From positions 1 through 54,164 of the IMG/VR virus record IMGVR_UViG_3300032954_000018: a DNA stretch of 54,164 nucleotides. The stretch is one strand, 5' to 3'. The notes under the pieces were generated by a model, which was given only the letters and a program-made list of their open reading frames with translations, made no database searches and was not told the DNA's origin. Origin of the DNA: a virus. The position numbers and the translations under genes are program-made. Shown here in pieces: positions 6,087 to 54,164 of this stretch; position 1 is the first letter of the stretch, and each line of letters begins with the position of its first letter.

Positions 6087-6590
6087 TTATAGGTACTGAA
6101 CCTCGGTCAGGGTGTTTCGCTTCTCCCTATCCACCTTACGACGATTGTGGTTACGGATTGCGTCTATCTGGTGCTTAAGCAGACCATGGGCTTTACCGAC
6201 ACCTTTGATATACCGATAGTCGGAAATTGTCGTGCCGTTGATCTGTATTTCTTCACCCCACTGTCCACCCAGTTTATTCTTTTCCTTGTTGGGTTCAAAG
6301 CCCAACCTCTTATCCTTCAGAGCAGCACTCTTGAGGATTTTTGTGTGGACAAATAGTACCCAGCTTCGAGGCTTGTTGTTTCTGGTTTTCTCCTCCACCA
6401 GAATAAAGGGAGTCCCCTGAGGGGCTTCACGGACGATGCGGATATAATCCACATCATCGCTGCCTGAAACAAAGCGATATTGCTTCTCAGTGTCTTTTTT
6501 CGGCATTGCGTACTTTCCTCTTACACCTTTACTCCAATCCCTGACTTCAGGAATGGATAAATCACAATCAGGTTGACCACAGCCACACAT
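6087..6590 (-). CDS. Hypothetical protein, 167 aa
   Basis: The N-terminus MCGCGQPDC carries three cysteines; the rest is a soluble alpha/beta sequence with a strand-rich middle (TPFILVEEKTRNNKPRSW...). The start at 6590 is uncertain: ribosome-binding signal GGTGG is weak, and an internal ATG at MPKKD has GAGGAAA farther upstream. It ends 6 nt before the tRNA. No family recognised. Confidence 0.7.
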   Translation of the reverse strand: MCGCGQPDCDLSIPEVRDWSKGVRGKYAMPKKDTEKQYRFVSGSDDVDYIRIVREAPQGTPFILVEEKTRNNKPRSWVLFVHTKILKSAALKDKRLGFEPNKEKNKLGGQWGEEIQINGTTISDYRYIKGVGKAHGLLKHQIDAIRNHNRRKVDREKRNTLTEVQYL

Positions 6591-21429: not shown

Positions 21430-21571
21430 CGTTAAACTCCAGCTTATACATCCGGTTGATTTGTTCTTGCTGTTCCATGCGGTCCTTTAGCTGAGTAGCC
21501 GCAGGACCTTGCATGTCATCTAGGAAACGCTTAATAGCGTTCCATAGGGCTTTGTCAACGGGCAGAATCAT
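21401..21571 (-). CDS. Small helical protein, 56 aa
   Basis: ATG 21571 has GGAGG 7 nt upstream and overlaps the stop of the ArdC-like gene (ATGA). It encodes a single charged helix pair (LKDRMEQQEQINRMYKLEFNDEL). Coupled to the ArdC-like protein. Confidence 0.7.
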   Translation of the reverse strand: MILPVDKALWNAIKRFLDDMQGPAATQLKDRMEQQEQINRMYKLEFNDELRNDHSI

Positions 21572-22401
21572 ACCAGAACCTCCATTGTGATGTGGTCAAT
21601 GATTTGCTTGGCAGTATCCCGAATTGTTTGGAGAGAATCCTTAATCTGCGTAGCTGTAGCATTCCACGCAGCAAGGTAGAATTGGGAGGGCTGCTCAACG
21701 CCGAAATACTGCATAACCATATAGCTTACAGATTCGGCCTCAAGTTCACGCTGTTCTTTGCTTGGCGGTCTCTCCGGGTTAAAATGGCGATGGTGCAATA
21801 ACTCATGGGCTAACTCATGGGCTAATGTGCCAGCCTGTTCCATGCTGAGCATGGATTTTCTAATCTTGATTTGGTGGTTCGAAGAGGAGGAACCTTTGGT
21901 ACCCTCGGGGAGATTGTCTGTATATTCAATATCAGCACCAATCTCCTTAGCCGCTGATTCTAAAGCAGCTACAATCATCGAACCATCCCCATCAGCCCGA
22001 TACTTAACATCAAGATCAGGCAAAGGCTCACCCTCGGTATCTGATACGTCGAAAACGTACACAGCCCGAAACCCATACAATCTGCTGGATTTAGGATCGT
22101 TGGGGTCATAGTTTGGGTCATCGGGCTTGATCTTAGCCAGCAACGGGGCTAGGATAGAAATACCCTTTGCACCCTTCTTAACATTCCGGTTAAGAGTCTT
22201 CCAAGTATTAAATTCCGCAACCCGCGTAGCATCGGGACGTTGCATCCAGATAAGTATCTGGTTACCCCATGAATACTCATGGAATGCCGCGCTAGTACGC
22301 AGATAAGCTTTAAACAACTCAGTCTGCGCAGCAGCATCGGTCATGCTAGCCAGATTCTCTATCCAGCCGTCGATTTTGGCTAGAAGAATCTTACTGTCCA
22401 T
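21568..22401 (-). CDS. ArdC-like antirestriction protein with metallopeptidase domain, 277 aa
   Basis: N-terminal region W-x-x-Q-x-L-I-W-M-Q...TWK-x-LNR-x-VKKGAKGI matches the ArdC N-terminal ssDNA-binding domain, with the typical YGF-x-VYVFDVSDTEG segment. Residues 195-199 are HELAH followed by LLHH and a downstream E-x-EAE, the zinc metallopeptidase site. ArdC proteins are carried by plasmids and phages and protect incoming DNA from restriction. Start ATG 22401 with GAGAGGGTGG upstream. Confidence 0.88.
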   Translation of the reverse strand: MDSKILLAKIDGWIENLASMTDAAAQTELFKAYLRTSAAFHEYSWGNQILIWMQRPDATRVAEFNTWKTLNRNVKKGAKGISILAPLLAKIKPDDPNYDPNDPKSSRLYGFRAVYVFDVSDTEGEPLPDLDVKYRADGDGSMIVAALESAAKEIGADIEYTDNLPEGTKGSSSSNHQIKIRKSMLSMEQAGTLAHELAHELLHHRHFNPERPPSKEQRELEAESVSYMVMQYFGVEQPSQFYLAAWNATATQIKDSLQTIRDTAKQIIDHITMEVLV

Positions 22402-22412
22402 TGGCCACCCTC

Positions 22413-22592
22413 TCAATCATCCGGATCAATAGGCTCATCCACATCATCCTGAGAATACGGCCTATCCATAATCTCAGGGCGATACTGCGATCTCTTCTTA
22501 CTCTCGCAGTCCTCGCAGACATAATCACAGAAAATTCCGTTACCATCGTAGAGTGGATAACGAAACTTTCCAGACCCACACCGGCAAGTCAT
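22413..22592 (-). CDS. Small zinc-ribbon protein, 59 aa
   Basis: ATG 22592 lies behind GGAGGATGCAG and overlaps the upstream TGA. TCRCGSGKF...DYVCEDCESKK has C-x1-C and C-x2-C pairs; the C-terminus is acidic. Ends 11 nt before the ArdC-like start. Confidence 0.75.
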   Translation of the reverse strand: MTCRCGSGKFRYPLYDGNGIFCDYVCEDCESKKRSQYRPEIMDRPYSQDDVDEPIDPDD

Positions 22593-33473: not shown

Positions 33474-35423
33474 GTGAATATAAATGCGATAGACGATTGG
33501 GATAAAATCTCGGATTGGGATTTATACAAAGCGTTAGACGATAATAGAGAACTTTGGAAGACCTTACAAGAAGAAGAATGTCTAAAAGGTCACTTTCTCT
33601 ATGATGTAGTCCGAGATCGAACTATCCGCAGTCTCTACTTCCTGAATCTTTTCCTCTGGGATGCCAATCCCTTTGGTGGTCCGGATACTCCTATATCAGA
33701 GAACCTGATGACCTTGGAGAATCACCAGCATATCATCGATATGTTCGTGAAGAAGGACCCTACTAAGTCTGTAGCCAATCAGTCAAAGATTAAAACAAGA
33801 TTGATTTTATACCCTCGTGGTAGCCTAAAGTCTTCTTGGGGTATCTTCGATGTGATACAATGGGTGCTTTTAGACCCTAAGATTCGTATCTTGGTGCTCA
33901 GCGCGGCAGATGACCTTGCCGCTGCTATCGTGGATGAAGCTCGTGGTTTCTTTATTATAAAAGAAGAAACTCCCACGTTGATGAACCTTTTCTGGCCGGA
34001 ACACTGCCTTCAAGAGAAGGATTTAGGCCCCTCAGGTAGTTATAACTCTCCCGCATGGGCGAGAATGCAGATTAAACGCAGGGAAACTACCATCATGTCG
34101 AGGGGGTTAACCTCGGCAGTAAGCGGATTCCACTTTGAAGTATTCCATGCAGACGACGCAGTTGAAACACGTAACTCCGGAACTGATGAAATTTGTCTTG
34201 GAGTTAAGAAGCGTTATGGAATCACACGCAAGATTCTTCGCACCTTCGGTTACACGAACCTACTCGGAACGCGATATCATGAAGCTGATCTCTATGGGGA
34301 CATTATATCCAAGTCAGAACTTGGAGAAGCCCACACCGAAGAGTTCTCAATAAGCGAAAAGAAGATTTCAAACCCCGGCAAGGGTGTTGAGATTCTTATC
34401 GGCGCGGCAATGACGATAAAGCCTGATGCCGAAATGGACATGGCAAACCACAATCTTGCTAAGCATCTGTGGTTTAGGAAAGCAGGGCCTAACGGCGTAC
34501 ATCTGCTCATGCCAAAAGTCCTTACATACGATACCTTACTGGTTAACTATGAGGACGATCCTGAGGCTTTCGAGACGCAGATGCGTCAGAATGTAACTCC
34601 TCCTACCGCTCAGATGTTTACTAGGGAGATGATCCTGAAAAACACCGTGAACTGGATGGACCTTCCACTTTACGGAAGAATCACCCATACATGGGACCTA
34701 AACGGCGGTAAAGGAAAAAGAGATAATGATATGTCCGTTGGTACGGCATGTCTATGGGATGCTAAGGGAACAGGGTACATTATAGACCTTATAGCCCAGA
34801 ACTTCCCCAATCCAGTTTCCACAGCACAAGCTATTGTAAGATTTGCAGTAAAACATCATCCAGACGTAATAAGCATCGAAGATTCATTAGGTGTAAGAAG
34901 CCTCTCCCCCACTATCGAAGCAGAAGCCGACAAAACTGATGATGCGTATGTCAAGCAACTCGTCCGAAGAATTTACTGGAGACCTGTTGATGTATCCAAG
35001 GATGCAAAGAAAAACAGAATCTCCGCGCTTTACCCATTGGTCCTTTACGGAAGAATTAAGTTTACGAGTACTCTCCCAGAAAGAGAAAAGCTCATCGAAC
35101 AGTTCATCCGACCAGTAACTAAAAGCTCAAAAAACGACATACCAGATTGTATTAGTTTCCAGACTTTCTTTCTTCCAGTTCCACCGGCCAATCCGGAGGA
35201 GCTTAAAAAGATGGAAGCCGAACGAAAAAATATGATCGAATATCAACGGGGCCGGTCCCAATGGGACATGATTTTCAACGAAAGTTGGCAGAACCCGTAC
35301 AGGGAGTACATACCAGAAGAACGGTATGAGATTCCAATAGACGAATCCTCGTTCTTAGATCAACGTCCTTACATAGATAATGAAGGATTGGATAACATTC
35401 TAGGAGCAGGCTTAATAGGATAA
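33474..35423 (+). CDS. terL: Terminase large subunit, 649 aa
   Basis: Starts at GTG 33474. Walker A-like PRGSLKSSW at 114-122 after a TRLILYPRG strand, typical of phage terminases; VLSAADDLA and FHADDAVE follow in the ATPase domain. The C-terminal nuclease shows THTWDLNGGKG near residue 405, ISIEDSLG near 467 and DIPDCISF near 555, the three acidic positions of an RNase H-like fold. It packages DNA into proheads through the portal. No small subunit was recognised nearby; one of the small basic proteins upstream could serve. Confidence 0.92.
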   Translation: MNINAIDDWDKISDWDLYKALDDNRELWKTLQEEECLKGHFLYDVVRDRTIRSLYFLNLFLWDANPFGGPDTPISENLMTLENHQHIIDMFVKKDPTKSVANQSKIKTRLILYPRGSLKSSWGIFDVIQWVLLDPKIRILVLSAADDLAAAIVDEARGFFIIKEETPTLMNLFWPEHCLQEKDLGPSGSYNSPAWARMQIKRRETTIMSRGLTSAVSGFHFEVFHADDAVETRNSGTDEICLGVKKRYGITRKILRTFGYTNLLGTRYHEADLYGDIISKSELGEAHTEEFSISEKKISNPGKGVEILIGAAMTIKPDAEMDMANHNLAKHLWFRKAGPNGVHLLMPKVLTYDTLLVNYEDDPEAFETQMRQNVTPPTAQMFTREMILKNTVNWMDLPLYGRITHTWDLNGGKGKRDNDMSVGTACLWDAKGTGYIIDLIAQNFPNPVSTAQAIVRFAVKHHPDVISIEDSLGVRSLSPTIEAEADKTDDAYVKQLVRRIYWRPVDVSKDAKKNRISALYPLVLYGRIKFTSTLPEREKLIEQFIRPVTKSSKNDIPDCISFQTFFLPVPPANPEELKKMEAERKNMIEYQRGRSQWDMIFNESWQNPYREYIPEERYEIPIDESSFLDQRPYIDNEGLDNILGAGLIG

Positions 35424-35440
35424 TCAGACTGAGGTTGATT

Positions 35441-36157
35441 ATGGCAGAAACAGATATCGCAATAGGCCTTCCGTTTGGCGGAAGATTGATTCATCCCCGA
35501 TGGGCCGCAGGCTTCTATATAATGGATTTCCCCCTCCACACTAAAAAATCTTTGATTATGGTGGAGAAAAGGCCTATAGATCAGGCTCGTAACGCTATCG
35601 TACAAACAGCCTTAGAACAGAACGCTAAGTACCTGTTCTTTCTTGATGATGATGTTATCTGCCCCAAGTATACCCCTCTAGCTCTAGGAAGTATTTTAGA
35701 GACCATGAAAGATGATGGGGTAATGCTAGCTACCGGGATATATTGCACCAAGAATAAAGCCGCTGCTCCTGTAATTTTTAGGCACGGCTTTCCGGGAAGT
35801 TATCTTGATTGGACCGTTAATCAAGAGTTCGAAGTAGACCAATGTGGTGCGGGTTGTTTGATGATTAACATGGAAGTGTTTAAACATCTAACTCCACCGT
35901 ATTTCAAGTTTACCCAGAAGTACGAACAGCTAGAAGGCGATATCCTCCTTACCGGAGTCAGTGAAGATGTATATTTCTGCGACTCTGTAAAGAAGGCGGG
36001 ATTTAAAATATACGCACACGGTGCCGTTCTTTGTAAGCATTACAGCAACGAAGACGATAAGTTTTATGAACTGTCCGAAGATAGTCCTCCCTATAAGCGA
36101 GAACTTCAACGACAGCAAGAAGAAGTTGAAAGACAAAAAGAGAAACAAGAGGTTTAA
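35441..36157 (+). CDS. GT-A glycosyltransferase-like protein, 238 aa
   Basis: Start ATG 35441 with GAGGTTGATT. LFFLDDDV (68-72) supplies the DxD metal site, RPIDQARNAIVQTAL the donor region, and SEDVYFCDSVKKAGFKIYAH the later acidic and base positions of family-2-like transferases. C-terminal coiled coil (RELQRQQEEVERQKEKQ). Gene lies between terminase and portal. It may glycosylate a virion or host surface molecule. Confidence 0.82.
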   Translation: MAETDIAIGLPFGGRLIHPRWAAGFYIMDFPLHTKKSLIMVEKRPIDQARNAIVQTALEQNAKYLFFLDDDVICPKYTPLALGSILETMKDDGVMLATGIYCTKNKAAAPVIFRHGFPGSYLDWTVNQEFEVDQCGAGCLMINMEVFKHLTPPYFKFTQKYEQLEGDILLTGVSEDVYFCDSVKKAGFKIYAHGAVLCKHYSNEDDKFYELSEDSPPYKRELQRQQEEVERQKEKQEV

Positions 36158-36559: not shown

Positions 36560-38668
36560 ATGGCACAAATCGAAAATCCGGGGAATGATAACACTCCGAT
36601 CTTAACACCGGAAGTTATCAACCAGATTCTACACACTGGTAAGTGGGCCGAAGACCCTGCACTAACATTAGTGGTCAGGGACGCGCAGATGGCCGAAACC
36701 GCGAAAGCGGCGAAGCAATGGATTGCGGGATGGAATTCCGCGTCTATCGTTTACCAGAGTACCACGGTTCCTAAATATTGGGAAGGAACACAGGTAGAGA
36801 GGGCTAATATCCCTTTCTATACGGTTGCCAAAGCGGTAAACTCTCTCACGCCGCAAATCATCAATGGATTGTTTTATGATGACCCCCCGTTTATTTTCCA
36901 ACCTCGTCCGGGTACTAGACAGAATACTGTTGAAGCTATATCCAATATTATTGAATATCAACTCCATGATATAAATTTCAAGGAAGAAGTAAGGCGAGGA
37001 GTACTCAATGCCTGTCTGTTTGGAACTAATATATGGAAATGGGGTTGGGACAGTTACACCCGCAAAGAAACCTACTATACTCGTAAGGACGAAAAAACCG
37101 TTCTTCCCTCAGGTGTTCCCGGTCAGCCGGATATAGAATACCACAATCCCGATAGTCCTCTTGAAGAGAAGACTGATGAGTATAAAGTAGAACGTCCAAG
37201 ATTTGAGAACATCACTAGCATCAAGGATGTTCTCATTGATCCAACTCTTCGCACTCCCGATATCCGCGAAGCAAAGTATGTCATCCATCGGATGTACATG
37301 ACTTTTAACGATCTAGAAAAACTACGAGATCGTCCCGGATATGATATCCCTAGTCGCGATGAGGTAATGAGTTGGTTCATGCCCCCAGCGGAAGAGGCTA
37401 TTCCGGCTCTTGATGAACAAACAGGAATTAACGCTGTCTGGGATATGCGGTCAAACCCCCGCTGGATGGTAGCGACGGAAGACCCTTTCGAACGTCCTCT
37501 AGAAATTCTAGAGCGTTGGGATAAAGACAAGATCATAATTGTTGTACAACAGAAGAAAGTTATCTGTAATGGAAAAAATCCTTACGGCGAAATTCCTTTC
37601 TTCTCTATCAACTGGTGGGACGTTCCCGGAGCCTTCTACGGGCTGGGACTGGCAAGAACCATCGGATCAGAGCAGAGGCTTCAGCAAGGCATTGTCAACA
37701 CTTGGCTAGACTCTACTGCTCTAGCTCTGGCCGGTGTTTATCTCCGGAAGCGTACTAAAAGCATTCCCACACAAAGCCTGCGAATCCATCCCGGTAGAGT
37801 GCTCGAAGTCGATGAAGTTACCGATATTCAGCCACTAGAGCGCACCCCTGCGGTACCAGAAGCCGGTCAACATATAGCCTTATCACAGGCTAGAGTTGAG
37901 CAAAATTCAGGCGCAGGAGAGATTACGACGCAAGGTATAGCGGGGTCCACAGGACACTCCAATCTTGCTCGTACTGCTACCGGAGCTAGTGCTATTACCT
38001 CCGGACAAGGCATACAGATATCAGAATTCATCGATAAGTTTTCTACTCAGGTATTCATACCTTTCCTTTACCGAGTAGATGAAATGAATCGAAGACTACT
38101 TCCCGCACACACGGTCCAGCAAATTCTTAACGAAGAACTTCAGAATCAGTACTTTTCAACTGGTGGTAGTATAGAAGAACTTCGTAATGCTAGAGTTAGC
38201 TTCGACGTTCAAGCCGGTGCAAAACTTTCCGAACGCAGAGCAATGGCGCAAAGCTTGCCTCTGTTGAGTCAATACCTTCAAAATCAGTTCATCTTACAGG
38301 GTATTGCCGCAGAAGGAAAGAAAGTACAGACCACTCAAGTACTCAAGATGATATTCGCTTCCTCTGGATGGAAGACATTCTACGATGTTATCGTGGATCA
38401 GACTCCGGAAGAGAAGCAGCAGTACCAAGCCAATCAGCCCGCCTCGCTTCAGCAAGCTAAAATGCAGAACGACAACGCGCAGATGGAAGCCAAGTTCCGG
38501 CATCAACAGGAACTTGCCGAACAGAATAACATGGCTCGTGCTGCAAATGAAGTGCTCAGACGTTCGCTTGAGCAGACCGCAACCCCTGAAGCCCTAACCG
38601 GAGCACCCGGAGCAGGCGGGGAGGGTTTCGGCAGCGAAGCAGGACTTGAACCCGGATCAGAATTCTAA
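36560..38668 (+). CDS. Portal protein, 702 aa
   Basis: Long protein directly downstream of terminase and upstream of scaffold and capsid. Typical portal sequence: helical core, IPFFSINWWDVPGAFYGLGLARTIGSEQRLQQGIVNTWLD, and a Gln-rich C-terminus (YQANQPASLQQAKMQNDNAQMEAKFRHQQELAEQ) as in other large portals. No Shine-Dalgarno site: the ATG is 7 nt after the tRNA CCA. Forms the dodecameric DNA gate. Confidence 0.88.
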   Translation: MAQIENPGNDNTPILTPEVINQILHTGKWAEDPALTLVVRDAQMAETAKAAKQWIAGWNSASIVYQSTTVPKYWEGTQVERANIPFYTVAKAVNSLTPQIINGLFYDDPPFIFQPRPGTRQNTVEAISNIIEYQLHDINFKEEVRRGVLNACLFGTNIWKWGWDSYTRKETYYTRKDEKTVLPSGVPGQPDIEYHNPDSPLEEKTDEYKVERPRFENITSIKDVLIDPTLRTPDIREAKYVIHRMYMTFNDLEKLRDRPGYDIPSRDEVMSWFMPPAEEAIPALDEQTGINAVWDMRSNPRWMVATEDPFERPLEILERWDKDKIIIVVQQKKVICNGKNPYGEIPFFSINWWDVPGAFYGLGLARTIGSEQRLQQGIVNTWLDSTALALAGVYLRKRTKSIPTQSLRIHPGRVLEVDEVTDIQPLERTPAVPEAGQHIALSQARVEQNSGAGEITTQGIAGSTGHSNLARTATGASAITSGQGIQISEFIDKFSTQVFIPFLYRVDEMNRRLLPAHTVQQILNEELQNQYFSTGGSIEELRNARVSFDVQAGAKLSERRAMAQSLPLLSQYLQNQFILQGIAAEGKKVQTTQVLKMIFASSGWKTFYDVIVDQTPEEKQQYQANQPASLQQAKMQNDNAQMEAKFRHQQELAEQNNMARAANEVLRRSLEQTATPEALTGAPGAGGEGFGSEAGLEPGSEF

Positions 38669-43231: not shown

Positions 43232-43834
43232 ATGAATCCTGTTTTATACGTAATACGACACGGAAGAACGTCCTACAATCAAAAAGGACTGTTCCGTGGA
43301 GAAGCTGATATCCCTCTCACAGAAGAGGGAGTCACAGATTCAGAAGAAGCTAAAAGCCAATTAGAAGATATAGAACCGGCTTTCATAGTTTCTTCTGATA
43401 AGAAGAGGGCTGTACAGACCGCAAAGCTAATAGCAGACGGTCTTGAAGTACAGACTACTCCGCTTCTCAGAGCGTGGAACTTAGGGCATTTTTCCGGAAA
43501 ACCGAAAAACGAAGAGAACCTTAAGGAACTGCAAAAATATATAGATGATCCTAATCTACCAGTTCCAGACGGAGAAAGCCTAGAAGATTTTCGCAATCGC
43601 GTACTCCCCACTCTTGCTGAAGCATTCGAACATGCCACGAGAGTAGGGGCAGGGTTTGTTGTAGCCCATAGCTCAGTAATTCATGAGATTGGTAATCAGC
43701 TATACGGAGATCATAAGAGCTTAGTAGTTAAACCGGGAGGTATCGTTGTCATAGGAATAGACAACGGGGAAATCTCGGCAGATCGAATTTTTAAACCGTT
43801 GCGGGACAAAGAAAGTGCCGCAAGTGTTTCCTAG
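43232..43834 (+). CDS. Histidine phosphatase (phosphoglycerate-mutase fold), 200 aa
   Basis: VIRHGRTSYNQKGLFRGEADIPLTEEG carries the RHG active site (9-11) and the conserved loop; SSDKKRAVQTAKLI the later Arg, E-x in the middle and VVAHSSVIHEIG the second catalytic His. A broad phosphatase. Unusual among structural genes; may act on nucleotides, sugars or proteins of the host. Confidence 0.9.
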   Translation: MNPVLYVIRHGRTSYNQKGLFRGEADIPLTEEGVTDSEEAKSQLEDIEPAFIVSSDKKRAVQTAKLIADGLEVQTTPLLRAWNLGHFSGKPKNEENLKELQKYIDDPNLPVPDGESLEDFRNRVLPTLAEAFEHATRVGAGFVVAHSSVIHEIGNQLYGDHKSLVVKPGGIVVIGIDNGEISADRIFKPLRDKESAASVS

Positions 43835-44555: not shown

Positions 44556-45212
44556 ATGCACGAATACAACCTACCCGAGAATATACTCGACCATGAACTA
44601 GCATTCTCTAAGACACTACTGGGCAAAGAATGCGAACGCTGTCGTCGGGCTTATCACTATAACTATTTCGATAGAGATTCGTCAAGCCGAGATGGTCGCG
44701 CCCACATTTGTCCAAAATGTAAGCAGACTCCTCGGCTTTCGATTGGAGAGAACGTAGCAAGATACAAGGAAATGAACGATAATTCGTCAGCCGTTGAAGC
44801 CCAACGTAGACCGGATGAACTGGATTATCTTGAAAGAGATTCTGTGGGCAGAGCACTAACGCACACTGAATTCATTCGCAAACTCCGCAGTCTTCTAGGA
44901 ACAAAACTAATTGTCGGAGACGCATATTTCCTTAATGAGTTTTCTCTCTACATCGAAGATAGCACTTGTACCGATACTAATGGTGTCCGTTACATAGGAT
45001 ATATACCTACCGGAGTCATACAAGAATTTTCCAGTTACGCTTACAACGATCACGGAGTGGCTGTCGATGAAACGCACAGAGGCTATCGTGGTCTACTCAT
45101 GAAGCTAATTCTAAACAAATACATTACTGAGGAGCAGTGCAACCGAGTATTCGGACGAACGGACGAAAAGGTTTGGTGCAAAACCCTCTACAACCTAAGG
45201 AACATAAAGTAG
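44556..45212 (+). CDS. Zinc-ribbon protein, 218 aa
   Basis: CERCRRAYHYNYF...HICPKCKQTPRLSIG at 26-60 is a zinc ribbon; the rest is helical then a beta-containing region. In the structural operon, so maybe a head-completion or tail protein. Unknown. Confidence 0.7.
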   Translation: MHEYNLPENILDHELAFSKTLLGKECERCRRAYHYNYFDRDSSSRDGRAHICPKCKQTPRLSIGENVARYKEMNDNSSAVEAQRRPDELDYLERDSVGRALTHTEFIRKLRSLLGTKLIVGDAYFLNEFSLYIEDSTCTDTNGVRYIGYIPTGVIQEFSSYAYNDHGVAVDETHRGYRGLLMKLILNKYITEEQCNRVFGRTDEKVWCKTLYNLRNIK

Positions 45213-45975: not shown

Positions 45976-46707
45976 ATGGCTTCGAATATAACGCTAAAAC
46001 GAACTATAGATATGACCCAACGGTTTATCTATGATGCCCCCATAGTCTATGTGAATAGTGGGGATTTAGCGTATTCAATCGGGGATTGGGTTAGGCAGCT
46101 TATACTCTCCCCTCCCTTTGTATGGCGATGGAACCGTGGATTTGTTCCCCCCATAGTCTGTATTGCCGGACAAACTGACTATCAGACATATCTTCCTGAT
46201 TTTGGGTTTCTCGAAAGAGCTACCATCATAATGCCTCCCGGTGTAGGGAACATCAACCAATACTCAAAAGAACTTACGATTGAGCAAACGCTGGTAGGGG
46301 AAACTATCCTTGGCCAGCCAGCTTTTATATCCGTCATTGCCGATGATAACAACGGTAATATTACTTTTCGATTGATGGGTGTTCCGGATCAGCCTTATGC
46401 GATTAACTTAATTTATCAAAAAGCTGCTCCAAATTTTAGCTCCACTACCGATACTTGGGCACCAATTCCAGACTACTACAACTATCTTTATAATCAAGGA
46501 TTTCTAGCTAAAACGTATGAATATAAAGGAGATGAGCGGTTTGCATTTGCTCATCAAGAATTTTTAAAAATGCTTGTCTCTGCCAGCGATGGATTGACCG
46601 AAACACAGAAAAACATCTTCCTCGACCAGAGACTCACTTACAACCGCGAGATTCAAGGATCACAGCAAACAGGAGCATTGGCGAGGCAAGGTAGAAGCGG
46701 TGCGTAA
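45976..46707 (+). CDS. Probable head-tail adaptor protein, 243 aa
   Basis: AGGAAGC precedes ATG. WVRQLILSPPFVWRWNR and a C-terminal helical end (FLAKTYEYKGDERFAFAHQEFLKMLVSASDGLTETQKNIFLDQR) match phage adaptor/connector proteins of this size. Follows the head operon. Confidence 0.65.
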   Translation: MASNITLKRTIDMTQRFIYDAPIVYVNSGDLAYSIGDWVRQLILSPPFVWRWNRGFVPPIVCIAGQTDYQTYLPDFGFLERATIIMPPGVGNINQYSKELTIEQTLVGETILGQPAFISVIADDNNGNITFRLMGVPDQPYAINLIYQKAAPNFSSTTDTWAPIPDYYNYLYNQGFLAKTYEYKGDERFAFAHQEFLKMLVSASDGLTETQKNIFLDQRLTYNREIQGSQQTGALARQGRSGA

Positions 46708-47027
46708 TGGCCTTTCTCCTATACATAAAAAATTTTCTAGATCAACTTTTCCGGTTCGTTAGAGACGCATACAGCGACAACGGTAATCCTTCTAGCAGCC
46801 GAATTCTTACGTTTATTTTGGCTTTGGTATCATCTAAAGTCGTTCTGAATGTTTTCAATCATATCATCGCACTCAGCGATGCAGCAGCCCTAGCAACTTG
46901 GCTTGGCGCATTGCCTTTGATAATCTCTGCTCTCGTTCTTTTCTTCACTGCTCCCTACGGTGTAAATGTTGGTTCTGGTACGGTTTCTGATCTTCTCAAC
47001 ACGCTAAAGGGTAAAAATCAACCGTAA
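46707..47027 (+). CDS. Holin-like two-helix membrane protein, 106 aa
   Basis: Two hydrophobic segments (ILTFILALVSSKVVLNVF and LATWLGALPLIISALVLFFTAPY) in a 106-aa protein of the late operon. No endolysin was recognised nearby, so a lysis role is uncertain. Confidence 0.6.
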   Translation: MAFLLYIKNFLDQLFRFVRDAYSDNGNPSSSRILTFILALVSSKVVLNVFNHIIALSDAAALATWLGALPLIISALVLFFTAPYGVNVGSGTVSDLLNTLKGKNQP

Positions 47028-47041
47028 ACCTATGAGTGGAC

Positions 47042-48034
47042 ATGATCTTATTTATTCTGAAAAGCCATCTAACGAGCGGAGGGCCGGGAAGAACACCGTC
47101 TAGCGGCCTAGAAAATTCCGCTACTCTAGTTGCGGACGTACTCCGCGACTTCGGTATTTATACAAAAGTTGTAACCGTTGTTGATTCCAACAGCATTGAT
47201 AGGGAGGTACATCAAAACAAACCTAGGATTGTTATCTTAGAAGCGATTTGGTGTCCTCCCTATAAACTCAAAGAACTAGCCAAACTATGGCCCGGTATTC
47301 GGTGGATAGTAAGGATACACTCCGAAATCCCCTTCCTCGCTAACGAGGGACAAGCCATGGATTGGCTTTTTCAGTATAAGGACATACCTAACGTTATCAT
47401 CGGAGCTAACTCTTTTAGAGCTACTGAAGATTTGATAATTGCGGGCATACCCGCTGTATATCTCCCTAACTACCATCCTATCAACTGTTTCAAAGCTTTT
47501 AGGATAGAAGATAAAGAACTGAATATAGGATGCTTCGGGGCTATCCGGCCCATGAAGAATCAATTAGCTCAAGCTCTTGCCGCTATAGAATACGCCAAGT
47601 TACAGGGAAAGTTTCTGAATTTTCACATGAATACTTCTCGTGTAGAACAGGGCGGGCAGCAGACTTTAAAGAACCTTAGAGCATTACTTTCTTCCGACCC
47701 CACTAGATTCCGTTTAGTGGAATTTCCATGGATGCTTACCAGAGATTTTATGGAAATGGTTAGGAACATGGATGTTTGTTTGAACGTTTCTTTCACCGAA
47801 ACATTCTGCATTACTGCGGCAAATGCTGCGGCTCAGAACGTCCCCATAGTAGTTAGCCCCGAAATACCGTGGGCTTCAAATGAAATTAAAGCCGACCCTA
47901 CCAGTGTTAAGGATATCCTTCATAAGTTAGAAGTAGCGTTAGGTCATCACCGTAGAAAGATCATTGACGACAATCTAGAAGGTCTACAAATCTACGACGA
48001 GATTAGCATAAGGAAGTGGTTAGAGGTAGTATAA
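47042..48034 (+). CDS. GT-B glycosyltransferase-like protein, 330 aa
   Basis: Starts ATG 47042 with GAGTGGAC. SGLENSATLVADVLRDFGIYTK in the N-domain and a C-domain with VCLNVSFTETFCITAANAAAQNVPIVVS, the typical E-x-F-C...A..G.P-like donor-binding segment. Located before fibre genes, so it may modify virion glycans or act on host surface glycans. Confidence 0.8.
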   Translation: MILFILKSHLTSGGPGRTPSSGLENSATLVADVLRDFGIYTKVVTVVDSNSIDREVHQNKPRIVILEAIWCPPYKLKELAKLWPGIRWIVRIHSEIPFLANEGQAMDWLFQYKDIPNVIIGANSFRATEDLIIAGIPAVYLPNYHPINCFKAFRIEDKELNIGCFGAIRPMKNQLAQALAAIEYAKLQGKFLNFHMNTSRVEQGGQQTLKNLRALLSSDPTRFRLVEFPWMLTRDFMEMVRNMDVCLNVSFTETFCITAANAAAQNVPIVVSPEIPWASNEIKADPTSVKDILHKLEVALGHHRRKIIDDNLEGLQIYDEISIRKWLEVV

Positions 48035-50055
48035 TGAAGAAATTTTTATCAACTTTAGCATTAATAGGAATGTTGCTCCCGGTAGCGGCAATGGGACAAA
48101 GCTCCCAGCGTCAATATACCGCCATGCAGGTAGGTGGCAAAGACTTTGCTGTCGTAGTTCCTAATGCGTATGTGTATGTATGTCAGTACAATACACAACT
48201 TGCCTGTACCACTCCGGTTGCGATTTATGCCGATACAGGTCTCACCCAGCGCATAACTCAGCCCCTTCGTGCCAACGCTGCGGGCGTGTATTCCTACTAC
48301 ATTCCTAACGGATCACAAGTCGTAGAAAAGGTTTGCACCATATATGGTCAGTGTTCTTTTGGTGGAGTGCAGATTGGTCCTACCGGAACAGCTACGTCTA
48401 CTATTTTCGAGATAGGCGGAACTGCTCTACAAAACCAAACCACCATCAACTTCCAAGCCGGGTCTAACATCACCATCACTAACCCCAGTGCGGGTAATGT
48501 TTTGATTTCTGCTACTGGCGGGGGAGGCGGGGGCAGTGTTTCTAGTGTGAGTACCCCCAGCGGCTCTTGGCCGACTTGGTTAGTTCCTACGACCACGAAT
48601 CCAACCAGCACTCCATCTATTTCAGTCGCGGCTTCTCCGATTCCGAATAGCGCACTACAGAACCCATCCTTAACCTTGGGATCGACAGTGCTTACTCTAG
48701 GGGCCACATCGAGTTCTGTTACCGGATTAACGATTGACGGAGTATCGCCTAGCACGATGGCATTCGTTGATCCTACAAGTTCGATTCAAACTCAGATTAA
48801 CAGTCTTCTTTCGAATACAGTAACTAGTATCAACGGCACGTCTGGCGTATTTACTTTCAACTTTAGCGCGGGAGCAGGAAGCTGCTCAGGGACTAGCTGT
48901 ACCTTTACTGGGTCTGGGTCCGGTGGTGGATCGGTAACCAATTTCATTGCTCTTACCGGCAACTGGCCTTCATGGTTGATTCCCTCGGTTACCAACTCGA
49001 CTACGACTCCTTCTCTTTCTGTAGCCATCGGCGGAAGCATCGCACAGTACGCCGTGTTTGCTGCTCCTCAGGGAGGGGCCGGTGCTCCTTCTTTCCAGAC
49101 TACACTAGCAGGATTGACTCTTGACGGAGTAAGTCCTACCACCATGGGATACCTTGATGCTACCTCTAGCATCCAGACGCAGCTTAACAGCAAGGCTTCT
49201 AGCAGTGCGACCTTCACTCTCGGTAGCACTACTGTAACCCTTGGCGGGACTACAACGTCTGTTACCGGGTTAACCGTTGATGGCGTGTCTCCGACCACCT
49301 TCGGGTATGTCGATCCCACTTCTAGCATTCAAACCCAACTTAATAGCAAGCAGCCCAATCTTGGATACACTCCCGCACACTCTGGGGCCAACTCTGATAT
49401 TACCTCTCTGACGGGGCTTTCTACTCCGCTAGCGGCTTCGGAAGGCGGTACCGGGGCTACTAGTCTCGGCGGAACACTTAGCGTTATGGCCGGTGTTCTT
49501 AACTGTAATGCGGCTACTACTTCTGTACTTGGTTGTGTCAAGCCGGATGGAACAACCATCACCATCTCTGGTGGGGTCATTTCTTCAGTCGGAGGCGGGG
49601 GAGGCATTACTCAGCTTACAGGAGATGGTACTGCCGGTCCCGGTTCGGGAAGTCAGCCCTTTACGCTGGCTACGGTTAATAGCGGACCCGGTAGCTGCGG
49701 AGACGCTACCCACGTATGCCAGATCACTACCAACGGAAAAGGATTGGTTACCGCGCAGTCTGCGGTAGCTATTACTTCGATTGCCAATATTCAGGTCACC
49801 ACAGGTACTAGCACTATCAACGCTAATTCCTGTACCGCTGATCTTGGTCCGGTAACGGTCACAGGTCTTGCGACTACTTCCACTATCAACTTTACCGGAA
49901 GCACGGATACTAGTGGCTCTACTGGATGGGGTTCTACTGGCGGTCTTCAGATCAATCCATGGCCTGCCGCTAACGCTCTCCACTACAAAATCTGTAACCC
50001 CACTAGCAGCAACATTACTCCATCTTCCGTAATCTGGAACGTGAGCTTTAAGTAA
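48034..50055 (+). CDS. Secreted or virion-surface fibre-like protein, 673 aa
   Basis: MKKFLSTLALIGMLLPVAAMGQ is a clear Sec signal peptide. Residues 20-110 (YTAMQVGGKDFAVVVPNAYVYVC...GVYSYYIPNGSQVVEKVC) form a domain repeated at the start of the last protein in the window. After a GGGGGG hinge there are fibre repeats: DGVSPxTMxxxDxTSSIQTQ occurs three times with LTLGSTxxTLG. A signal peptide on a fibre is unusual for a phage. Confidence 0.8.
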   Translation: MKKFLSTLALIGMLLPVAAMGQSSQRQYTAMQVGGKDFAVVVPNAYVYVCQYNTQLACTTPVAIYADTGLTQRITQPLRANAAGVYSYYIPNGSQVVEKVCTIYGQCSFGGVQIGPTGTATSTIFEIGGTALQNQTTINFQAGSNITITNPSAGNVLISATGGGGGGSVSSVSTPSGSWPTWLVPTTTNPTSTPSISVAASPIPNSALQNPSLTLGSTVLTLGATSSSVTGLTIDGVSPSTMAFVDPTSSIQTQINSLLSNTVTSINGTSGVFTFNFSAGAGSCSGTSCTFTGSGSGGGSVTNFIALTGNWPSWLIPSVTNSTTTPSLSVAIGGSIAQYAVFAAPQGGAGAPSFQTTLAGLTLDGVSPTTMGYLDATSSIQTQLNSKASSSATFTLGSTTVTLGGTTTSVTGLTVDGVSPTTFGYVDPTSSIQTQLNSKQPNLGYTPAHSGANSDITSLTGLSTPLAASEGGTGATSLGGTLSVMAGVLNCNAATTSVLGCVKPDGTTITISGGVISSVGGGGGITQLTGDGTAGPGSGSQPFTLATVNSGPGSCGDATHVCQITTNGKGLVTAQSAVAITSIANIQVTTGTSTINANSCTADLGPVTVTGLATTSTINFTGSTDTSGSTGWGSTGGLQINPWPAANALHYKICNPTSSNITPSSVIWNVSFK

Positions 50056-50936
50056 TGAAACTGTTAAAACTGTTACTACTTCTCACTTTTGTTTTCAAAG
50101 GAGAGGCACAGATAACAGCCCCTATGCATACGGGGGCTTTAGCATCTCCTTCAACCTCGAATCTATGGACGGGGTTGCTTGCCCCTGCTAGGGCTGTTAA
50201 TTGGAGTACGGCAGGAGCAGGCCCCATTCCTTCGCGCTCCGTGTGTACCACTCTCGGAACCGCAGGCCAATCTTCTAGTTTTGCACAAAGCGTAACTACT
50301 GCAAACATCGTATCTGCTTTGAATTCTTGTGCGTCCGGTCAGATGGTACTTCTGAATCCGGGAACGTACACAATGACCCAGACTCTTATTATAAGCAAAT
50401 CCAATGTCGGCCTAAGGGGTTCCGGTCCCACTCAGACTATTCTTAAGTGGACAGCAACTTCAAGCAATTGCAATGGTTTTGGACCGACAGCATTTTGTGT
50501 AACCAACGGTGATTCGGGAACTGTTAACGGTTCCTCTAATATATGTTCCGTTACTGGCGGAACTTCACGTGGGTCAACAGCAATAACTATTAGTTCCTGT
50601 TCCACGGGAGCGTTGTCAAACCTAAAAATTGGTTCACTTCTTCAGCTTGAAGCCAACGATGAAGCAAGCGATAACGGTCAGTGGTGGGCTTGTGGAAGCA
50701 CAGGAAGCAACGGAACCTGCTCCCAACAAGGCTCACAGAACTCATGGAGTGGTAATACCACAACCCAGATGGTAGTTGTCACTGGAATATCAGGAACAAC
50801 CATCACAATCTCTCCCGGAATATACGCTCCTGATTGGGCCTCGGGAAGGACGATTCATCTACACTACCCGTCTCCGCATTTGGGATTGAGAATCTTGATA
50901 TTGATACTGAATCCCTCGGATCGATTGAAGCCATGA
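50055..50936 (+). CDS. Beta-helix protein, N-terminal part (frameshifted)
   Basis: MKLLKLLLLLTFVFKGEAQ is a signal peptide, followed by ITAPMHTGALAS. MVLLNPGTYTMTQTLIISKSNVGLRGSGPTQTIL is typical of pectate-lyase/tail-spike parallel beta-helices. The frame ends in about 30 unrelated residues after TCG-GGA near 50846. Shifting -1 there joins it to the next frame with a smooth sequence (DWASG-KDDSSTLPVSAFG). Confidence 0.75.
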   Translation: MKLLKLLLLLTFVFKGEAQITAPMHTGALASPSTSNLWTGLLAPARAVNWSTAGAGPIPSRSVCTTLGTAGQSSSFAQSVTTANIVSALNSCASGQMVLLNPGTYTMTQTLIISKSNVGLRGSGPTQTILKWTATSSNCNGFGPTAFCVTNGDSGTVNGSSNICSVTGGTSRGSTAITISSCSTGALSNLKIGSLLQLEANDEASDNGQWWACGSTGSNGTCSQQGSQNSWSGNTTTQMVVVTGISGTTITISPGIYAPDWASGRTIHLHYPSPHLGLRILILILNPSDRLKP

Positions 50937-52054
50937 TCGAATACCAGTGGGGATATAATGATTGGGTCAAGAATGTTTCTCTCATAAACTCTATTCAAAA
51001 TAGTGCAGCCACAAAAAAGCATATTCTGATCGGATCGTCTGCTCATATCACCGTTCGCGATTCTTATGTCTATGGCTCAAGTCCAACAATGGAGGGATAT
51101 GGCATAGATGTAACAATCGGATCGGGAGATAATCTGGTTGAAAACAATATCTGCCAGCACGTCGCCACTTGCACAATTCTTGAAAATGGTATGGGAAATG
51201 TCTTTGGATACAACTATTCCGTAGATAATGCCTATAGCGGTAACCCAGCGGGATCGGCTCCTAATTGGCAGGGAAGCGATGCGGCCCATCATGCGGCGGG
51301 TGATGTTTATAATCTGTGGGAAGGTCATGAAGGAATCCAATATTCAGCAGATGACATTCACGGTACGTCCTTCTCTAACACGGTATTTCGTTCCTATCTC
51401 AATGGACGGGACCCAGCTAATACCTGCCCCCCGGCAAATCCTTCTTGCGGAACCGGCGTAAAAAACCAGAACACGGGAGCAGTACACGAAGCAGCAAATA
51501 ACCGCTATGATAATATTGTAGCCAACGTCCTTGGCTCTGGTACGTATTTTACGACTTATCAGAATCAAGGACTATCGGGAAGTCCTAATACGTGTACAAG
51601 TTACAACTGGACTGCAATCTATACTCTAAATTTTAGCGACAATCAGGTTCCTTTTTCACCCACTTGCGCGGGTTCAAGCTTCACTATTGACAACGATCCT
51701 TTAGTCTCTACTGCTTTAATGCGTTGGGGGAACTACGATACTGTAAACGCAGCAGTTAGAACCAATGCTGGTGAGACAGGATCGGGAGCATCGACCTATC
51801 CCGGCTTGGTTACTCCATCAACTTCATGGTCTAGTTATCCTTCTTTCTATTACTCATCTAGGCCCTCATGGTGGAATATCTCTATTGCTCCATGGCCCCC
51901 GATTGGTCCCGATGTTACTGGCGGTAATATCAGCAACTCAGGTGGTCATGCCAACCATAACATGGCAGGGAATTGCTATCTTGTAGTTCTCGGAGGGTCT
52001 GTTACTGGGTCAAGCGGAGCACTTCCGTTTGATGCGAGTACTTGCTATCCTTAA
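50846..52054 (+). CDS. Beta-helix protein, C-terminal part (frameshifted)
   Basis: Continues the right-handed beta-helix: repeated V-x-N-x-I, DSYVYGSS, GIDVTIGSGDNLVENNI, GNVFGYNYSVDNAY. Contains HHAAGDVYNLWEGHEG and a Trp/Tyr-rich end typical of polysaccharide-binding. Read alone it starts only at an upstream in-frame TTG (50834) with no signal peptide, so it needs the N-terminal part. Either a sequencing or real indel, or a programmed -1 shift at GGGAAGG. Confidence 0.75.
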   Translation, partial: KDDSSTLPVSAFGIENLDIDTESLGSIEAMIEYQWGYNDWVKNVSLINSIQNSAATKKHILIGSSAHITVRDSYVYGSSPTMEGYGIDVTIGSGDNLVENNICQHVATCTILENGMGNVFGYNYSVDNAYSGNPAGSAPNWQGSDAAHHAAGDVYNLWEGHEGIQYSADDIHGTSFSNTVFRSYLNGRDPANTCPPANPSCGTGVKNQNTGAVHEAANNRYDNIVANVLGSGTYFTTYQNQGLSGSPNTCTSYNWTAIYTLNFSDNQVPFSPTCAGSSFTIDNDPLVSTALMRWGNYDTVNAAVRTNAGETGSGASTYPGLVTPSTSWSSYPSFYYSSRPSWWNISIAPWPPIGPDVTGGNISNSGGHANHNMAGNCYLVVLGGSVTGSSGALPFDASTCYP

Positions 52055-53439
52055 TGAAAAAATTTCTAGCACTTCTCCTATTCCCATTTATAGCTGCGGC
52101 TCAAGTAACGGTACCTAGGCATAGCGGGGCATTGGCTTCTAATCCTAGCATCCCAGTAGCTACTATCAACGGAAGTACTACATATCAGGTAATTGACGGT
52201 TTCGGGGCCGCGACTGCTTTTCTTGCCACGGTCCCTACGTCTGTTATCAATACCGAATACTCTCCGTCACAGATAGGACTAAAGTACATTCGAGTACAAA
52301 TCTATCCCGATTACACCGATTGTAATAACGTCTGGGGATCATGCGTTACAGGTCCGTCAGGATGGACCGGGGCAGTAATCAATAACAGCGATCTGGCTAA
52401 CATACAGGCCGCAGTCGCTAACGGTGCAGTATTATGGGGAGCGATGTGGTCTCCTCCGGGTTCGATGAAGTCTAACGGTAATTTTAACTCGGGGGGAGCA
52501 TTTATCGGCAATCCTACGAATTATACCAACCTTGCCAACATTCAGACTTCGTTTGTTACCCTGATGCAGAACACCTACGGCATAAGTGTCTACGCTATTA
52601 GCGTTCAGAATGAACCTGATTATTCTCCTCCATCTTATGCGGGTTGTACGTGGACAGCCACACAATTCCACGATTATGTACCGTATCTACGTAGTGCTTT
52701 GAATGCCGCTGGATACACAAGCGTCAAAATTATGATTCCGGAATCTGCGCATTGGTCTAGCTTGAGTGGATTCGCTACTACATCTATGAACGATGCGACG
52801 GTAGCAGCAGATATAGGTATCCTTGGTGGACATGCATACGGGATGAATGGTGCGGCTCCCCCTCCATCGGTCCCAACACTACTAAGCTTTTCCAACGTCA
52901 CTAACCAGCATTTCTGGGAGACAGAAACCTCTGACCAAGAGCCTAATGGTAATACAACCTATGACGGAACTATGGTAAGCGGATTGGTATATGCACAGCT
53001 TATCCACCAGTACCTAACCATAGCTAAAGTCAACGCATGGCATTATTGGTTGATCTCGGGAGCAGATCGCGGAGAGAATTCCGGACTTACCGACTCTAGC
53101 AATAACTTTGCTAAACGTGCTTACGTTATGGGTAACTGGGCTAGGTTTGCGACTGGCTTAACAGAAATTTCCGCTACAGCCAATCCCCAAACTGGGGTTT
53201 ATGTTACGGCCTTTAAAAACCTCGTATCGGGTAAGTTTGTAGTCGTAGCCATAAATACAAACAGCGGCTCTGTAGCACAGAATTTTACCTTTGCAGGCGG
53301 ATTGTCCGCTAGCACGGTCACCCCTTATATAACCGATCCTACCCACAATCTCGCAGCCCAATCCGCTATCAGTGTCAGCGGTAGCGGGGTAAATGTTACC
53401 CTCACCGGGCAGAGTGTAACGACCTTTGTGAGCAATTAA
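52054..53439 (+). CDS. Glycoside hydrolase family 30-like enzyme, 461 aa
   Basis: Signal peptide MKKFLALLLFPFIAAAQ, then VTVPRHSGALAS, and a GH30 TIM barrel: VIDGFGAATAF start, LKYIRVQIYP, WSPPGSMKSNG, VQNEPDY (acid/base E187), WETETSD (nucleophile E289 or E291), then a C-terminal beta domain. GH30 enzymes cut xylan, beta-1,6-glucan or similar polymers. Secreted or virion-bound, it could break host capsule or environmental polysaccharide. Confidence 0.9.
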   Translation: MKKFLALLLFPFIAAAQVTVPRHSGALASNPSIPVATINGSTTYQVIDGFGAATAFLATVPTSVINTEYSPSQIGLKYIRVQIYPDYTDCNNVWGSCVTGPSGWTGAVINNSDLANIQAAVANGAVLWGAMWSPPGSMKSNGNFNSGGAFIGNPTNYTNLANIQTSFVTLMQNTYGISVYAISVQNEPDYSPPSYAGCTWTATQFHDYVPYLRSALNAAGYTSVKIMIPESAHWSSLSGFATTSMNDATVAADIGILGGHAYGMNGAAPPPSVPTLLSFSNVTNQHFWETETSDQEPNGNTTYDGTMVSGLVYAQLIHQYLTIAKVNAWHYWLISGADRGENSGLTDSSNNFAKRAYVMGNWARFATGLTEISATANPQTGVYVTAFKNLVSGKFVVVAINTNSGSVAQNFTFAGGLSASTVTPYITDPTHNLAAQSAISVSGSGVNVTLTGQSVTTFVSN

Positions 53440-54164
53440 TGAAGAAGATACTATTACCGTTGTTGCTGCTGTTTCCACTTATTGGAAATGCACAGTCTGC
53501 TCAAAGATGGTATACGGCTTTGCTGCCCAACACGCAAGGTCAAAATTTCGTTTCTGTGATTCCCAACGCACAGATTTATGTATGCAGCTACAACGAGCAA
53601 TCGGAGTGTCTGAGCGAAACTTCTGTTTACTCCGATACGGAATTACATACTCCCATCCCGCAACCATTCTCGGCGGACGCAAGTGGAGTCTACCACTATT
53701 ATGTCCAATCCGGAACTAGGGTAGTTGAAAAGGTCTGCGCTCCATACGACCAATGCTCTAGCTATATCGTTCAAATAGGAGATGATGTTACCGGAGGGGG
53801 AGCAGGGCAGTGTAATCCATTCGGCATCGGAAGCTATACGGTATGGTGGAACGGAACGCAATGTCTGACTGAATTTACGAATTACGGTGTAACACAACCC
53901 CGATTCATCTCTACAGAAGTACCTACGGATGCTACCGGCATTAACGGATGGGAAGTAGACGTAGCGACCAATCATCCCTACAAATCGAGGATAGTTCTCA
54001 ATCCCGGCGCGATAGCTGCAACCGATGCTGAAAGTAATGAGACTTGGATTTTCGGATCGCAGGAAGACTATCCTGTGGTTCTTGATGCCTATGGCCAGAT
54101 AAAGATTGCAGGTACTTCCTTGGTTCTTTGCGCTAGCGGAGGTACTGGTGGGTCCCAGCCTTTG
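53439..54164 (+). CDS. Secreted fibre-like protein, partial (open at window end)
   Basis: MKKILLPLLLLFPLIGNAQ signal peptide. Residues 20-125 match the 48034 protein: F-x-SVIPNAQIYVCSYN...GVYHYYVQSGTRVVEKVC...QCSSYIVQIG. The frame (242 codons) continues past base 54164. A paralogous appendage with a different body. Confidence 0.8.
   Translation, partial: MKKILLPLLLLFPLIGNAQSAQRWYTALLPNTQGQNFVSVIPNAQIYVCSYNEQSECLSETSVYSDTELHTPIPQPFSADASGVYHYYVQSGTRVVEKVCAPYDQCSSYIVQIGDDVTGGGAGQCNPFGIGSYTVWWNGTQCLTEFTNYGVTQPRFISTEVPTDATGINGWEVDVATNHPYKSRIVLNPGAIAATDAESNETWIFGSQEDYPVVLDAYGQIKIAGTSLVLCASGGTGGSQPL

Follow-up and report, generated by a model that had tools for sequence, protein, structure and literature searches.

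Can a tailed phage send its tail appendages across the host membrane and still fit them to its particles? The question is raised by the last four genes, called here A, B, C and D, of IMGVR_UViG_3300032954_000018, a 54,164-base virus record described as a soil-type bacterial virus and taken at its full length as the window. Tail appendages are generally taken as cytoplasmic products, and the P22 tailspike folds in the cytoplasm and is not known to carry a signal. All four proteins encoded here look exported, which is well supported by sequence, and we propose, with a probability of roughly 0.55, that the cassette supplies both tail appendages and enzymes that degrade glycans, all leaving the cytoplasm via host Sec, with the tailspikes docking late on virions. 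The four consecutive genes and their parts are the following:

48034..50055, plus strand: gene A, 673 aa; signal peptide, docking domain, fibre-like repeats and C-terminal domain (open reading frame and alignments)
48034..48096, plus strand: signal peptide of A, predicted cleavage between MG and Q (from the sequence; the detector's own cut lies two residues earlier)
48097..48390, plus strand: tailspike head-binding-like domain of A with four conserved Cys (alignments and model of the homologous D domain)
50055..52054, plus strand: gene B, right-handed beta-helix protein, broken, with a frame change near 50850 (open reading frames 50055-50936 and 50834-52054; fold of the relative L071)
50055..50108, plus strand: signal peptide of B, cleavage between EA and Q (rule-based detector)
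50109..50147, plus strand: N-terminal tag of B (QITAPMHTGALAS), absent from aligned bacterial relatives
52054..53439, plus strand: gene C, 461 aa; signal peptide, tag and GH30 (glycoside hydrolase family 30) catalytic domain at residues 36-460 (PDB and Pfam matches)
52054..52101, plus strand: signal peptide of C, cleavage between AA and Q (rule-based detector)
52102..52140, plus strand: N-terminal tag of C (QVTVPRHSGALAS), shared with B
53439..54164, plus strand: gene D, at least 242 aa, running off the contig; signal peptide, docking domain and a body mostly unseen (open reading frame and alignment)
53439..53492, plus strand: signal peptide of D, cleavage between NA and Q (rule-based detector)
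53493..53810, plus strand: tailspike head-binding-like domain of D, modelled (pLDDT, the predicted local distance difference test, 82.6; fold matches)

The starts of A to D are fixed by TAATG stop/start overlaps with the preceding gene at 48034, 50055, 52054 and 53439 (4/4), an arrangement that also suggests coupled translation of the cassette genes. Behind each start lies a Sec-type signal peptide (4/4), with basic residues in its n-region, a core rich in Leu and a cleavage site of small-x-small type; the predicted cuts fall directly before Q, after MKKFLSTLALIGMLLPVAAMG in A, MKLLKLLLLLTFVFKGEA in B, MKKFLALLLFPFIAAA in C and MKKILLPLLLLFPLIGNA in D. These calls come from a home-made rule-based detector, not SignalP, which was positive in 5/59 window open reading frames of at least 100 aa (A to D plus one weak internal start) against a background of 222 positives in 5800 shuffled N-termini (3.8%). 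A first reading, made from the sequence only, had noticed signal peptides on four consecutive proteins and parts shared between them; the detector and the fixed starts bear out the signals, and the shared parts were also recovered, while the gene that it called beta-helix (B) proved to be broken across two frames.

What do the signals of A and D precede? The two proteins are 48% identical across the aligned N-terminal part, which agrees with the sequence-only reading of a domain common to two proteins after the signal. An AlphaFold model of the mature D domain had as its best PDB matches in Foldseek the Pan3 and Pam1 tailspikes (E 0.003-0.014), and VIA-align placed it, with moderate scores, near the tailspikes of Pan3 (Z 8.9), P22 (Z 7.9; 2.6 A, 82-86 residues), Sf6 (Z 7.9) and Pam1 (Z 7.8). 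Additionally, 16 matches at E<=0.001 were obtained in BFVD, including tail spike and pectate-lyase-type phage proteins, and a profile search of PDB sequences gave 10 matches at E<=5, 8 of them tailspikes, each weak and none significant alone. The structure prediction that the first reading had proposed as a check covers the A/D domain, as modelled from D, and it did not favour the role given to the shared 90-aa domain, that of an anchor for secreted proteins: since the nearest structural matches are the virion-docking domains of tailspikes, A and D appear to be tail components and exported proteins at once. Like the P22, Sf6, Pam1 and Pan3 tailspikes, they appear to combine an N-terminal beta-sandwich docking domain with a fibre-like or other body and are encoded in a virion operon; unlike them, they have a leading signal peptide and four invariant Cys. 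PHROG 35501, a family with no assigned function, matches 6/11 members of the domain alignment described below, and as its position 12 corresponds to mature residue 15 of D, a signal peptide has no place in that family. Read most economically, the shared domain is probably a tailspike docking domain that has gained a signal at its N-terminal end. In A the body consists of fibre-type repeats, and its C-terminal 67 aa are 58% identical to a gene product of another phage (contig L077); the L077 protein hits a PHROG tail fibre family, but in another stretch.

Is this architecture peculiar to the window? Related contigs were obtained from IMG/VR scans with the terminase, the adaptor and the A/D domain profile; the last matched 6 of the 11 related records, and the resulting alignment holds 11 distinct proteins from the window and related phage contigs, with 34-54% identity to D and 20 invariant columns, including that of the start Met. 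The rule-based detector finds a signal peptide at the N-terminus of all 11, although they were chosen by domain and not by signal, so that the signal peptidase prediction proposed as a check by the first reading was positive both for A to D (4/4) and for the docking homologs (11/11). In L014, G010 and the contigs of L045 and L046 the docking-domain genes follow the adaptor or the small protein beside it, and G010 has an additional one directly downstream of the portal. Neighbours of these genes are also signal-bearing, among them fibre-like proteins, a GH10 protein (E 8.7e-44) and a GH30-like protein. The A/D profile found no relative in bacterial genomes, sampled at one genome per species, and host transfer of the domain is therefore not seen. 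No match came from scanning viral contigs with single proteins (A's N-terminus or C), and a 27% match in Delftia phage RG-2014 was taken as chance because it sits among replication genes. As a separate observation, contig G016 (L098 11667-18297, L046 2588-12206) holds eight signal-bearing genes on one strand over about 16 kb, including a GH30-like protein.

Support independent of the signal calls comes from cysteines. Four invariant Cys occur in 11/11 docking-domain proteins, the scan patterns having included a conserved Cys and thus being biased toward members that have it. Cys makes up 259/12682 residues of the cassette (2.04%) versus 44/8575 (0.51%) in 20 hand-picked virion proteins, and, with cleavage sites set by hand, the mature protein has an even Cys number in 21/23 complete cassette members and in 8/8 of docking type, compared with 72/114 controls (Fisher p 0.007); the two odd counts belong to C itself (3) and to a 106-aa G010 protein (1). 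Richness and even numbers both support export, with disulfides as a possible use of the residues.

The second pair, B and C, appears to be of another kind. According to tblastn and alignment to intact bacterial relatives, B is one gene with a frame switch near 50850. A programmed frameshift was considered and rejected: the sole in-frame slippery heptamer, TTTGGGA, lies at 50879, and because the second frame is homologous already upstream of it (SSTLPV), an indel, real or from assembly, is preferred. The model of the intact relative L071, confident for only about the first 350 residues, has the fold of a right-handed beta-helix and matches a K1 capsule lyase at Z 23 across 288 residues. Relatives of B were found at 19 loci in genome contigs, 13 of them titled as Acidobacteriota groups and the rest as other phyla, with full-length identity up to about 45%; 14/19 have a detected signal peptide of their own and in 9/19 the predicted mature protein starts with Gln. 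In the aligned relatives the domain found soon after the mature N-terminus is the one that follows the tag in B; in B, then, a phage leader and tag take up the place that the relatives give to a leader of their own. For C, residues 36-460 align to the GH30 xylanase 5cxp (E 1.3e-47), Pfam gives GH59 above its cut-off with GH30 models just below, and QNEP at 185 and WETE at 288 are present, which we take to be the two catalytic Glu sites. Residues 36-460 and both Glu motifs make C resemble the GH30 xylanases 5cxp and 4fmv, from which it differs in being phage-encoded and in its short N-terminal tag. B is thus a lyase-like beta-helix protein with mainly acidobacterial relatives and C a GH30 xylanase relative, and to judge from these similarities both look polysaccharide-active.

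The motif AQ-x-T-x-P-x-H-x-GALAS that the sequence-only reading had seen after the signal in two proteins was confirmed in B and C, where it stands directly after the cleavage site as Q[IV]TxPxH[ST]GALAS, and it could be an anchor or docking peptide. A tag scan of viral contigs gave one exact match, in L077 and again directly after a signal peptide; by our own estimate a few chance matches could arise in a collection of that size, and the weight of this one lies in its position and in the adjoining signal-bearing gene, the one that shares A's C-terminus. As L077 is a phage with baseplate-wedge and hub genes, the cassette style crosses phage types. The signal of an L077 fibre gene (6332-6388) ends in IGGC before Q, and this protein may be a lipoprotein and not a signal peptidase I substrate.

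Which host would cut these signals? Gln stands directly after the cleavage site in 10/11 aligned docking homologs. The wider comparison concerned 29 cassette proteins and the signal-bearing proteins of KBS 89 and SZAS-3 (both Acidobacteriota; L078-L089, L105-L113) and of E. coli; as 18 of the 29 lack the docking domain and many were picked for their signal, 29/29 signal-bearing is no rate and the Gln fraction alone is informative there. [AGS]Q coincided with the automatic cut or adjoined it in 25/29 cassette proteins, 22/39 in KBS 89, 19/41 in SZAS-3 and 1/25 in E. coli, and Gln stood exactly at +1 of that cut in 14/29, 17/39, 12/41 and 0/25 respectively. The cassette pattern is therefore as in the sampled Acidobacteriota and unlike E. 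coli, a likeness that independently supports export. Together with the relatives of B it points to an Acidobacteriota host, although the host evidence is indirect. The plant-type glutaminyl cyclase PF05096, the only cyclase family searched and a candidate for turning such Gln N-termini into pyroglutamate, was found in just 1/6 genomes holding B relatives. Gln at +1 is thus common in the predicted signals of KBS 89 and SZAS-3, despite the Q-rule being called Bacteroidetes-specific in PMC5837995, which suggests that the feature is not confined to Bacteroidetes.

The proposed route would run as follows. A and D would be tailspikes or fibres whose docking domain, of P22/Pam1 type, is preceded by a signal peptide; signal peptidase would cut before the conserved Gln, so that the mature protein would begin at the docking fold's first strand. 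They would fold in the periplasm, where Cys pairs can form disulfides, and might dock onto virions once lysis mixes the compartments. In P22, tailspikes can join particles extracellularly, which makes such late docking at lysis plausible. That the docking domain has stayed intact after a signal finds its simplest explanation in an exported tailspike that retains its docking to particles. B and C, with a signal and a 13-residue tag, would take the same export route; we infer the place of action of the cassette proteins, and for these two it would be the envelope or the outside, on host or neighbouring polysaccharide. Being enzymes, they do not have to dock and may work either in free form or by way of the tag. 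A broader statement, which we hold tentatively and somewhat short of even odds, is that one group of tailed phages completes its particles beyond the cytoplasm: Sec-exported tailspikes would be oxidised and N-terminally processed in the periplasm and would attach to virions at or after their release, and tagged sister glycan enzymes would go to the envelope.

Several points weigh against this interpretation. The case for export is built on sequence and models, and its signal calls on a home-made detector. On the structural side, unrelated proteins reach Z 7.2 and below against the D-domain model, a value of about 8 may stem from a widespread sandwich arrangement, and Pfam Head_binding PF09008 matches just 1 of the 11 domain members (E 0.038). 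The cysteine contrast is smaller with a broad automatic control (152 genes, 1.25% Cys), and the parity test counts relatives as independent, their relatedness weakening its p of 0.007. Lastly, the GH30 and GH10 proteins of the relatives are without a docking domain, and virion attachment therefore cannot be general for the cassette.

The same enzymes lead to the main rival, in which A to D would be exported effectors that degrade exopolysaccharide or capsule, mask receptors or adhere to the cell surface and never become virion parts, the docking-like domain having been turned to another partner, such as the cell surface; we consider it clearly less probable. In its favour, the GH30/GH10 members also match CHB_HEX_C or InlB-repeat domains, which are usual for secreted enzymes, and in L077 a signal-less virion-type protein precedes the signal-bearing genes, suggesting that the exported set may add to a normal fibre. 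It has difficulty with the conservation of the docking domain across the 11 proteins, with the lack of domain relatives in the bacterial genomes searched and with the location of the genes in a virion operon near the adaptor. The export of polysaccharide-degrading proteins advanced by the sequence-only reading is retained in part: all four proteins look exported and B and C suit such a role, whereas A and D look like tail parts.

Inefficient or uncleaved signals are improbable as an explanation. Here the hydrophobic N-termini would be used in the virion, for membrane contact at ejection, or the proteins would be mostly cytoplasmic, with the export look being secondary. In PMC10367356 the signal-like peptides seen on phage capsid proteins are put down to cleavage by the prohead protease, so a virion protein with such an N-terminus is not necessarily exported; the small-x-small site before Gln is, on the other hand, conserved in the style of the likely host group, and neither the Cys richness nor the same-operon enzymes with bacterial secreted relatives fit. 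Passive inheritance of signals from captured host secreted proteins, without phage function, is suggested by the resemblance of B and C to bacterial secreted enzymes, but is very improbable given that the phage leader and tag of B occupy the relatives' own leader position and that a docking domain not found in the bacterial genomes searched carries a signal in every member.

How new would late docking of exported tailspikes be? Use of host Sec by phage lysins is already known from the SAR (signal-arrest-release) and signal-peptide endolysins KBNP1315 (PMC4640515) and the J5a clade (PMC8878798); these share the route and differ as lysis enzymes, not tail appendages. Phage signals that follow the Q-rule are known too: in PMC10367356, signal peptides of P. 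gingivalis phages are predicted to expose Gln (the Bacteroidetes Q-rule) in five genes of unknown function. The present cassette resembles these in its phage-encoded signals with predicted Gln exposure and differs in encoding tailspike-like proteins and glycan enzymes, and in the indirect evidence for an Acidobacteriota host. Apparently new are Sec-exported tailspikes, of which no description was found in the literature searched, subscription papers and preprints being outside its coverage. Soil viruses encode auxiliary glycoside hydrolases of plant-polysaccharide type; unlike those, the enzymes here share one operon with exported docking-domain tail proteins. Among cultured phage records, window DNA 30000-54164 and the proteins of A, D and the second frame of B had no match, and C matched just distant GH30-like genes in 3 records. 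If the proposal is true, final phage assembly can use periplasm-matured proteins and disulfide-stabilised receptor-binding proteins become possible for phages; it would also explain how fibres could act on neighbouring cells as well, and a signal-led docking domain would be a sequence signature for finding such phages.

The right half of the window is the virion operon of an SU10-like podovirus, as judged by terminase, portal and adaptor, and the cassette lies downstream of the last three of the following genes:

33474-35423: terminase
36560-38668: portal (SU10_portal, E 1.9e-24)
45976..46707, plus strand: SU10-type adaptor (PF24175, 31.5 bits versus a cut-off of 27), which marks the virion operon
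46707-47027: small protein between the adaptor and the GT4-like gene
47036..48034, plus strand: GT4-like glycosyltransferase (Pfam matches below cut-off), with a TAATG overlap with gene A

This last gene, coupled to the cassette, is one of two weakly glycosyltransferase-like genes in the operon, the other being at 35435-36157. A histidine phosphatase (43232-43834; PF00300, E 2e-33) also lies within the operon, and genes resembling it occur in the related contigs L031, L043 and L014. The product of 44556-45212 is Cys-rich with CxxC pairs and by eye zinc-ribbon-like, and relatives carry similar genes close to the adaptor. L031 12773-13603 and 14765-15517, which lie among G010's head genes, appear by eye to be homing endonuclease-like, of LAGLIDADG and GIY-YIG type. 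Finally, the window gene at 21568-22416 combines ArdC N-terminal and M78 peptidase domains and is a possible anti-restriction protein.

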